Source of the DNA: Buttiauxella sp. A111
GTDB lineage: Bacteria; Pseudomonadota; Gammaproteobacteria; Enterobacterales; Enterobacteriaceae
Direction: 5' to 3'
NCBI RefSeq assembly: GCF_014189855.1
Contig: NZ_BJFN01000002.1
Span: forward strand, 558,001 to 622,000
Length of the DNA stretch: 64,000 bases
In this document: in pieces, positions 6,545 through 40,762 of the stretch
Numbering within the stretch: the first letter of the stretch is position 1
Layout: each line of letters starts with the position of its first letter
Made by a program: the position numbers and the translations under genes
Notes under the pieces: generated by a model
What the model was told of the DNA's origin: nothing
Seen by the model: the letters and a program-made list of their open reading frames with translations, nothing else
Database searches by the model: none

Positions 6545-6575
6545 GGGTTTGCTGGATCCCAGATCCAGCAAACCC
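6545..6575. terminator. Bidirectional terminator yjgM/uhpT
   Basis: A perfect 13-base stem GGGTTTGCTGGAT with loop CCCAG lies between the convergent genes yjgM and uhpT. It is followed on the plus strand by TTCAACTTTTT and on the minus strand by CGTTTTAAG. Confidence 0.85.
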
Positions 6576-38763: not shown

Positions 38764-39648
38764 ATGAAATATTCGTTAGGGCCGGTGCTGTATTATTGGC
38801 CAAAAGAGACGCTGGAAAAATTTTACCAGTCTGCCGTTAAAAGTAGCGCTGAAACTATTTATCTTGGCGAGTCTGTTTGCAGCAAACGTCGTGCCACCAA
38901 AACCGGTGACTGGCTGGACATGGCGAAAAGCCTGGCCGACCAGGGTAAGCAAGTGGTGCTTTCCACTTTAGCTCTGGTTCAGGCACCGTCTGAGTTGAAC
39001 GAACTAAAACGCTACGTCGAGAACGGTGAATTCTTAATTGAAGCCAATGATCTGGGCGCGGTGAACATGGCGGCAGAACGCAAGCTTCCGTTTGTCGCAG
39101 GGCATGCGCTTAACTGCTACAACGCGGTGACTCTGCGCTTGTTGCTCAAGCAAGGCATGGTTCGCTGGTGTATGCCGGTTGAGTTGTCGCGAGACTGGCT
39201 GGCAAACATGCTTATTCAGTGCGACGAGTTGGGTATCCGCAACAAGTTTGAAGTGGAAGTTCTCAGCTACGGTCATTTACCACTGGCCTATTCCGCTCGT
39301 TGCTTTACCGCGCGTTCAGAAGACAAGCCAAAAGATGAATGCGAAACCTGCTGCATTAAATATCCTGTCGGACGCAACATGCTTTCCCAGGAAAATCAGC
39401 AAGTGTTTGTGCTTAACGGCATTCAGACCATGAGCGGTTATGTTTACAACCTCGGGAACGAACTGACATCAATGAAAGGTTTGGTCGATATGGTGCGTTT
39501 ATCCCCGATGGGTATGGAAACATTGCGCGTTCTGGAAGCATTTCGTAAAAATGAAAATGGCAGCGCACCTTTGTCACTGGCCGCGCAGAGCGATTGTAAT
39601 GGCTACTGGCGTCGCGTCGCTGGTTTAGAGTTAGTCACTCAGAGCTGA
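38764..39648 (+). CDS. ubiV: O2-independent ubiquinone hydroxylation protein UbiV
   Basis: A 294-residue U32-family partner of UbiU. Cluster cysteines C39, C180, C193 and C197 are conserved (ESVCSKRRA, SARCFTAR, DECETCC). The start at 38764 (MKYSLGPVLYY) follows GTAGGAAAT; an in-frame ATG at 38746 overlaps ubiU and would add six residues. The stop codon lies inside one arm of the long inverted repeat before yhbW. Confidence 0.95.
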   Translation: MKYSLGPVLYYWPKETLEKFYQSAVKSSAETIYLGESVCSKRRATKTGDWLDMAKSLADQGKQVVLSTLALVQAPSELNELKRYVENGEFLIEANDLGAVNMAAERKLPFVAGHALNCYNAVTLRLLLKQGMVRWCMPVELSRDWLANMLIQCDELGIRNKFEVEVLSYGHLPLAYSARCFTARSEDKPKDECETCCIKYPVGRNMLSQENQQVFVLNGIQTMSGYVYNLGNELTSMKGLVDMVRLSPMGMETLRVLEAFRKNENGSAPLSLAAQSDCNGYWRRVAGLELVTQS

Positions 39649-39748
39649 TAAAAGGCTCACTTTGTTACTTAATTGTTGATGATTTTCGGCAATACTGAGC
39701 CTAATTATCAGCAAACGAAGTTACCCACTTCGTCTAACAAAGTGAGCC
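39644..39748 (+). promoter_or_regulatory. Alternative-stem RNA element between ubiV and yhbW
   Basis: Stem A pairs GCTGATAA-aa-GGCTCA (39644-39659) with TGAGCC-taa-TTATCAGC (39696-39712). Stem B pairs GGCTCACTTTGTTA (39654-39667) with TAACAAAGTGAGCC (39735-39748), 14 perfect pairs. The two share GGCTCA and exclude each other. A small hairpin ACGAAGT/ACTTCGT (39715-39733) fits with both. Stem B covers the yhbW ribosome binding site. No ligand or regulator is known to me. Confidence 0.55.
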
Positions 39749-39751
39749 GTT

Positions 39752-40762
39752 ATGTCTGAATCTGCCCAAGTTCCGTTCTCTTTACTCGATTTAGCCCCTA
39801 TCCCACAAGGCTCTCAGCCTCGCGACGCGTTTCATCGCTCGCTGGATTTAGCTCGTCTTGCTGAAAAGCGTGGATATCACCGCTACTGGCTGGCTGAACA
39901 CCACAACATGACCGGGATTGCCAGCGCAGCTACGTCAGTGCTGATTGGCTATCTGGCGGCAAATACCGAAACTTTACGTCTGGGGTCTGGCGGCGTGATG
40001 CTGCCGAACCATTCACCTTTAGTCATTGCTGAACAGTTTGGCACCCTGGAAACGCTTTATCCTGGGCGTATTGATTTGGGATTAGGCCGCGCACCGGGAA
40101 GTGACCAACGCACGATGATGGCGCTACGACGCCATATGAGCGGAGATATCGACAACTTCCCGCGCGATGTGAATGAACTGGTGTCCTGGTTTGATGCCAC
40201 CGATCCGAATCCAGCCGTTCGTCCGGTTCCAGGTTACAACACCAGAATCCCTGTCTGGTTGTTAGGCTCAAGCCTTTACAGCGCACAGTTGGCGGCACAA
40301 CTTGGGCTTCCGTTTGCCTTTGCTTCTCACTTTGCGCCAGATATGTTGTTCCAGGCACTTCAACTTTACCGCGCCCAATTTAAACCCTCTGCGCGCCTTG
40401 AAAAGCCGTATGCGATGGTTTGCATTAATATTATCGCGGCCGACAGCAACCGCGACGCCGAGTTTTTGTTTACCTCGATGCAGCAAGCCTTCGTGAAATT
40501 ACGCCGTGGGGAAACGGGCCAGTTGCCTCCGCCGATTGAAAATATGGATAGCTTCTGGAGCCCGGCGGAACAGTATGGCGTGCAGCAGGCGCTCAGCATG
40601 TCGCTGGTCGGTGACAAAGCGAAAGTTCGTCACGGGTTGATTTCATTGCTGCGAGAAACTAAGGCCGATGAAATTATGGTTAACGGCCAGATCTTTGATA
40701 CAGAAGCCCGACTGCATTCGTTTGATTTAGCAATGGATGTTTATGAGAGTTTAATGGGTTGA
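39752..40762 (+). CDS. yhbW: Luciferase-like monooxygenase YhbW
   Basis: A 336-residue member of the bacterial luciferase-like flavin family with a TIM-barrel fold. Typical stretches are [38 protein letters not shown] and GLGRAPG. FMNH2-dependent oxidation is the family reaction; the substrate is unknown. It lies 103 bases after ubiV on the same strand, with the alternative-stem element between. A terminator separates it from convergent mtr. Confidence 0.92.

Follow-up and report, generated by a model that had tools for sequence, protein, structure and literature searches.

An inverted repeat between ubiV and yhbW of Buttiauxella and related Enterobacteriaceae, proposed as a lock against translation of read-through RNA

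Introduction

In Buttiauxella sp. A111, the ribosome binding site (RBS) of yhbW lies in one arm of a perfect inverted repeat, and the other arm lies a few nucleotides past the stop codon of the preceding gene, ubiV. The question raised by this arrangement is in which RNA the two arms would meet, and what their pairing would mean for translation of yhbW. The DNA analysed, referred to below as the window, is a stretch of 64,000 nucleotides (contig NZ_BJFN01000002.1, positions 558,001 to 622,000 of the forward strand). An earlier note, made from the sequence of the window, took the repeat as one of two mutually exclusive stems forming a translational switch. In a literature search covering mostly journals outside subscription, no published account of a hairpin between ubiV and yhbW was found.

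The locus and the inverted repeat

Gene order in the window is ubiU-ubiV-yhbW, the same as in Escherichia coli K-12. The ORF of ubiV (38764..39648, + strand) encodes a U32-family protein (Pfam PF01136) of anaerobic ubiquinone synthesis; its start was placed at the inner ATG because of resemblance to UbiV of E. coli, and its stop codon is the TGA at 39646-39648. If the earlier note meant position 39696 as the ubiV stop, this was wrong, and the true TGA lies within the left strand of the alternative stem which that note proposed. The ORF of yhbW (39752..40762, + strand) begins with the ATG at 39752 and encodes a luciferase-like monooxygenase family protein (Pfam PF00296, Bac_luciferase).

The left arm of the repeat, GGCTCACTTTGTTA (39654-39667, + strand), is the perfect complement of the right arm, TAACAAAGTGAGCC (39735-39748, + strand), and this 14-base complementarity ahead of the yhbW ATG was confirmed as it had been described. 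The right arm contains the yhbW Shine-Dalgarno (SD) sequence AAGTGAG (39740-39746), and three bases separate its end at 39748 from the ATG at 39752. As ubiV is the upstream gene, an mRNA reading through from it would include both arms. In the minimum free energy fold of such RNA, an inner helix of 12 pairs (39673..39714, + strand; 39673-39684 with 39703-39714) is added to the hairpin. A third hairpin in the leader, claimed at 39715-39733, is present there on the + strand, but it is lineage-specific: in a genus-level alignment of 12 sequences, only 4 have it whole.

Two perfect 14-bp inverted repeats with arm starts no more than 110 nt apart were found in the 64-kb window, and zero at the same arm distance in 100 dinucleotide shuffles of it. 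The segment 39644-39790 had a fold energy of -46.3 kcal/mol, with a z value of -6.1. The sole other repeat of this kind, at 6545-6575, has the sequence GGGTTTGCTGGATC and a short loop.

Several known kinds of element were considered for the ubiV-yhbW gap. A repeat element or MITE was ruled out by the single copy of the segment in the genome. An intrinsic terminator was ruled out as well, the long hairpin being followed on the + strand by GTTATG without a T tract; the terminator scan gave one weak + strand candidate (39642-39658, 5 pairs), and candidates in the region numbered 6 versus 3.6 (sd 1.9) by chance. Rfam gave two matches in the gap, with E values of 0.25 and 0.73, both far under the gathering scores, and the weak matches in the loci of relatives fell outside the gaps; no known RNA family was thus matched at gathering score. 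The same Rfam search found no oxygen- or flavin-sensing element.

Conservation among relatives

The ubiV-yhbW gaps were taken from the genus (12 genomes), a family sample, named genomes, E. coli and further genera. In the family sample, yhbW was detected at E <= 1e-30 in 83 of 149 genomes. The 153 loci with ubiV upstream yielded 100 distinct sequences. Sixteen fetched loci had no ubiV upstream and their gaps were unmeasured, except for genome G027, whose locus was recovered as L219; L025, L030, L032, L038, L088, L089, L092, L094, L095 and the non-Enterobacterales loci L096-L158, having no ubiV, were not used.

The left arm was searched for as the best match with up to 3 mismatches and no base fixed, and was present in 77 of the 100 distinct sequences. 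By a stricter pattern, which presets several bases, it was present in 76 of 98, the number of distinct sequences being larger in the former search since more coding bases were compared. Statements about invariant bases below rest on the search fixing no base, from which L029 (degenerate arm, read by eye) and the false arm of L085 are omitted; pairing counts come from the stricter pattern, the other tally being incomplete (25 rows without a readable SD). All counts are drawn from related genomes and do not represent independent events.

The left arm was also found in Salmonella enterica arizonae and in E. coli K-12, which has a perfect 14-bp element. Named loci without it were those of Erwinia, Pantoea, Mixta, Yersinia rohdei, a Symbiopectobacterium and an Enterobacterales MAG (L085-L087, L090, L091, L093). 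Because the ACAAAGTGAGC ribosome site was retained in at least four taxa without the left arm (L085, L213, L215 and L216), the right arm looks like the older RBS and the left arm like a later addition in part of the family, an order that we infer from this distribution.

Pairing over the yhbW ribosome binding site

In predicted folds, the median probability of the SD being unpaired was 0.001 for read-through RNA and 0.393 for RNA beginning at the predicted yhbW start described below, and the SD was more open in the latter in 47 of 48 rows. The exception was L085, which is without a true left arm, and L067 was effectively a tie; L162 had no hexamer match and is absent from these rows. The yhbW SD is thus predicted to be buried in RNA carrying both arms. 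The duplex of the long stem had an energy of about -21 kcal/mol (-20.8 to -21.3) in all 13 sequences tested, and the inner 12 pairs of the outer helix, with G-U allowed, were all formed in 66 of the 76 gaps whose left arm was found by the stricter pattern.

Changes in the arms were followed on the yhbW tree, where 48 tips matched the stricter pattern (L029, L033 and L219 were unmatched and so fall outside these) and L084 was omitted from the count owing to a 1-nt insertion. A pair was kept in 5 of 6 left-arm changes and in 20 of 24 changes of the inner right arm, the latter being only moderately telling since a transition facing U or G leaves a pair in any case. Covariation, a check proposed in the earlier note, was examined in an alignment of 32 of the 33 distinct arm pairs (L033 being left out for its 2-nt bulge). 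The 14-bp helix had 89.3% of cells paired compared with 87.8% in shuffles, a level reached by 0 of 500, and its covariation score was matched by only 7 of 500 shuffles, but two-sided changes, seen at 3 pairs, were no commoner than in shuffles, 171 of 500 reaching that number.

Individual loci provided some compensated changes, most clearly L033 (genome G059). This locus differs in both arms, with CAGGGAG as RBS and CTCGCCCTG as left arm; it forms a 10-pair helix with a 2-nt bulge and still has the hexamer at 37 (see below). At pair 6, G-C replaces A-U in L204 and L208, and at pair 8, A-U replaces U-A in L029. The inner helix had 93% of cells paired with covariation no better than shuffles in the 12-sequence genus-level alignment, and was not used as support. 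These data give moderate support for selection acting on the RNA pairing, and the long stem burying the yhbW RBS, as proposed before, is backed by the folds predicted for it, by its conservation and by some changes that are compensated.

A candidate promoter between the arms

The distance from the left arm to a -10-like hexamer was exactly 37 nt in 75 of 77 sequences, the background frequency of xAxxxT hexamers at other offsets being 11% (0.112). The hexamer is AATACT in the genus of the window (39691..39696, + strand) and mostly CAGTAT elsewhere, and the bases between arm and hexamer vary. Distances on either side are free: 3-165 nt from the ubiV stop to the left arm, with more than 700 nt in L219, and 21-138 nt from the hexamer to the right arm. 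Because the -10 phasing is fixed, the other distances are free, the arm resembles an activator box and RamA activates yhbW in vitro (see below), yhbW probably has a promoter of its own between the arms, with a start predicted at about 39703. A start past the left arm, which the earlier note had set against its own switch, is what this geometry predicts for the mRNA of yhbW itself. The promoter elements are weak by consensus, the -10 of the window's genus agreeing at 4 of 6 positions, and a promoter scan of the window's ubiV-yhbW gap found no promoter.

Insertions were observed on both sides of the arm-to-hexamer segment. Between the -10 and the RBS of yhbW, a conserved insert of about 50-115 nt, consisting of GCAGCTTTTCTGGC ... 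GGAAGAAGACCTTCAATCTGATGA ... GCTGT with a variable hairpin, is present in L028/L044, L046, L057, L060, L080, L084 and others; it is present in L262 and missing from L043, L261 and L263 of the same genus. Its core 15-mer matched 14 of 149 family genomes, one of the 14 places being in an rpiA-like ORF (L226, by eye) and one (G163) far from yhbW. There was no Rfam match in the seven loci scanned and no covariation, and the folds were near those of shuffles for 2 of 2. The insert may represent a leader RNA of a kind not yet described.

Between ubiV and the left arm, L219 (G027) carries at 1577-2177 two small reverse-strand ORFs that resemble a ccdAB toxin-antitoxin pair by eye, and its left arm stays with yhbW despite the insert; a similar insert is found in L029/L165 (G036). 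L199 and L200 (E. coli W and A2), L024, L048, L034 and L257 have inserts of about 80-165 nt, some of them repeat-like, between the ubiV stop and the left arm, and the segment from the arm to the -10 is intact in all six.

The left arm as a candidate activator box

The left arm resembles a MarA/SoxS/Rob/RamA box in forward orientation (15-mer 39655-39669). The marbox is written AYnGCAC and requires the A that is found at arm position -2, and the class II position of mar/sox/rob boxes is about -41. The candidate box, also forward, is centred at -41 from the predicted start.

A MarA position weight matrix was made from 32 of the 33 sites in Table 1 of PMC5684230, the one site not binding in vitro being left out. 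Outside the genus, the arm had a score of 8.6 bits in most of the sequences that carry it, which is in the top 0.04% of window 15-mers, and this site was nearly always the best in its gap; the score in the window's genus was only 2.6 bits. Compared with the 10-position pattern given in PMC12052159, the E. coli arm has 3 mismatches and the arm of the window has 4, the screen described in that paper allowing 2 or fewer. Assignment to such an activator is least certain for the genus of the window.

A role in DNA that is separate from pairing is favoured by two bases. The A at arm position -2 lies outside the helix and is present in 77 of 77 sequences, but in an A-rich flank; A14 likewise occurs in all 77, yet in most cases it is unpaired (pair formed in 14 of 32). 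In L067, L164 and L166, the arm and its spacing are retained with poor pairing, so that the DNA role does not require the RNA role.

Published expression data concern the same gene in relatives. Klebsiella RamA was reported to bind the yhbW promoter and to raise transcription 6.9-fold in vitro (PMC4310594), and yhbW was reported as 3-fold lower in a Salmonella ramA mutant (PMC3139621). E. coli yhbW was reported in the SoxRS regulon, and its induction by vanillin, described as independent of soxS, reached about 77-fold for YhbW protein and about 13-fold for RNA (PMC6561319). A larger rise in protein than in RNA is the direction that a lock on basal RNA predicts, the two values coming from different methods.

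Two further observations concern the same region. E. coli K-12 yhbV/ubiV holds a published MarA ChIP site (L203:671-685, - strand; PMC5684230 Table 1), and a version of it with 3 mismatches lies in the ubiV of the window at about 38945; the E. coli peak was considered as the yhbW box and ruled out, being 778 nt upstream of yhbW and away from the arm. In Salmonella, STM3276, which is yhbW according to a published table, was listed as a locus at which a GATC is undermethylated and ON/OFF subpopulations arise under the control of Dam (PMC7708049).

The proposed read-through lock

The computation established the pairing, its conservation, the fixed spacing to the -10 and the predicted burial of the RBS. 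We propose, with moderate confidence, that the inverted repeat is a read-through lock, in which yhbW has its own promoter between the arms, the left arm serves as an activator box and ubiUV read-through RNA goes untranslated. In DNA, the left arm or part of it would be bound by an activator of the MarA/SoxS/Rob/RamA type, with a fixed spacing to the -10 downstream. The stress-activated yhbW promoter would start the mRNA past the left arm, giving a message that has no hairpin and would be translated. Read-through RNA from ubiUV, which is anaerobically induced, would carry both arms and form a hairpin of 13-14 bp, and the right arm, as the yhbW ribosome binding site, would then be masked by the left arm and yhbW left untranslated. 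The stem would be confined to read-through mRNA because the mRNA of yhbW itself is predicted to start downstream of the left arm. We infer the start site, the occurrence of read-through and the loss of translation. In E. coli, Fnr was reported to drive ubiUV (PMC10470549, a paper that makes no mention of yhbW).

A fuller form of this proposal is more tentative and, in our judgement, falls just short of being probable. One 14-base element would be read twice, in DNA as the activator box of a stress promoter and in RNA as an anti-Shine-Dalgarno sequence silencing all other transcripts; the identity of the promoter would decide translatability, and the monooxygenase-family protein would be off during anaerobic transcription of ubiUV. 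If the lock is true, no terminator is used to insulate a stress-regulon gene from the anaerobic operon next to it, and RNA and protein levels of yhbW may disagree. An activator box doubling as an anti-RBS arm is also a simple pattern, searchable in other operons with internal promoters.

Alternative explanations

Several other explanations were weighed against the lock. The arms may act in DNA only, the left arm as activator box and the right arm as RBS or second activator site, with the complementarity a frozen coincidence and the hairpin without a role. Such a reading would account for the left arm being almost invariant, for the rigid spacing in the three loci with poor pairing (L067, L164 and L166) and for the right-arm core retained in the four or more taxa without a left arm. 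We consider it unlikely, as 14-bp complementarity at such close distance is very improbable by chance (0 of 100 window shuffles), L033 differs in both arms at once, and pairs are swapped in L204, L208 and L029. In addition, arm position 4, with no base fixed in the search, is T in 77 of 77 sequences, the base that pairs with the SD, whereas A prevails at the equivalent position of the published MarA sites (PMC5684230).

The read-through lock also has to be compared with translational coupling, in which a ribosome ending ubiV at 39648 would open the left arm (from 39654) and expose the yhbW RBS. A distance of 3-7 nt from stop to arm in most gaps measured would suit this, but several lineages with intact arms have 23-165 nt there and L219 has more than 700 nt, making coupling a very unlikely explanation. 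It is equally unlikely that the hairpin serves chiefly to stabilise the 3' end of ubiUV mRNA, or as a site of its processing by RNase, with masking of yhbW as a by-product: a long stable hairpin does stand directly past ubiV in many species, but where inserts split the genes the element stays with yhbW and not with ubiV, and the loop is free to vary in length between the -10 and the RBS.

The bistable translational switch of the earlier note, in which the left arm alternates between the RBS and 39696-39712 in response to oxygen, flavin or translation of ubiV, found the least credence. Its alternative stem (39644..39712, + strand) does exist, with 15 pairs (8 + 7) and not 14, formed by 39644-39651 with 39705-39712 and 39653-39659 with 39696-39702. 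As isolated duplexes, both stems are strong in the window's species (-22.2 kcal/mol for the alternative and -21.3 kcal/mol for the long stem), and the alternative would form first during transcription. However, it is species-specific, being complete only in the two genomes of the window's species and incomplete in all of the 11 others tested (10 sequences from the genus and 1 from a neighbour; -4.3 to -14.8 kcal/mol); its probability in the window is about 2e-8, and no Rfam aptamer was matched at gathering score, so that any aptamer here would be an undescribed one. The comparison of energies which the note had suggested went against the switch, the fold with the alternative stem forced having -54.9 kcal/mol versus -67.2 kcal/mol, a whole-fold difference of 12.3 kcal/mol. 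Because the alternative stem is broken in relatives and costly as a whole fold, a conserved bistable switch is unsupported, and the proposed alternation of the two stems was not borne out; in the window's species alone, the alternative stem may provide a kinetic detour.

Comparison with known systems

The proposed lock would share features with several known systems. As in translational riboswitches, the yhbW RBS is predicted to be buried in a stem; unlike in these, there is no conserved alternative structure and no Rfam match at gathering score. In IS10 and IS50, mRNA read through from outside contains an inverted repeat hiding the RBS of the transposase, and the transposase's own mRNA starts inside the repeat. 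The yhbW element differs from these in being no transposable element, and is present as a single copy at the same locus across the family.

Class II mar/sox/rob promoters are described as having a poor -35 (PMC10268841). Similarly to class II promoters of the mar/sox/rob/ramA type, the yhbW arrangement has a candidate forward box over a poor -35, with its centre at about -41 from the predicted start; unlike in these, the bases of the yhbW box would also be constrained by pairing with the RBS, and the box is weak in the window's genus.

The closest comparison is with phage T4 gene e, for which, as well as for soc, 49 and I-TevI, long transcripts initiated upstream are reported to hide the RBS in a helix (PMC3014915). 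For gene e, the same source describes early long transcripts as masked, with a 100-fold effect, and transcripts from the late promoters, without the 5' arm, as well translated. The yhbW locus resembles gene e in that, on longer transcripts, its RBS is predicted to pair with an arm lying upstream. It differs in that yhbW belongs to a bacterial chromosome and its predicted promoter would depend on an activator, and that the 5' arm is apparently the activator box. If the proposal is true, the promoter of origin decides whether this chromosomal gene is translated, a device for which phage T4 provides the best-known case.
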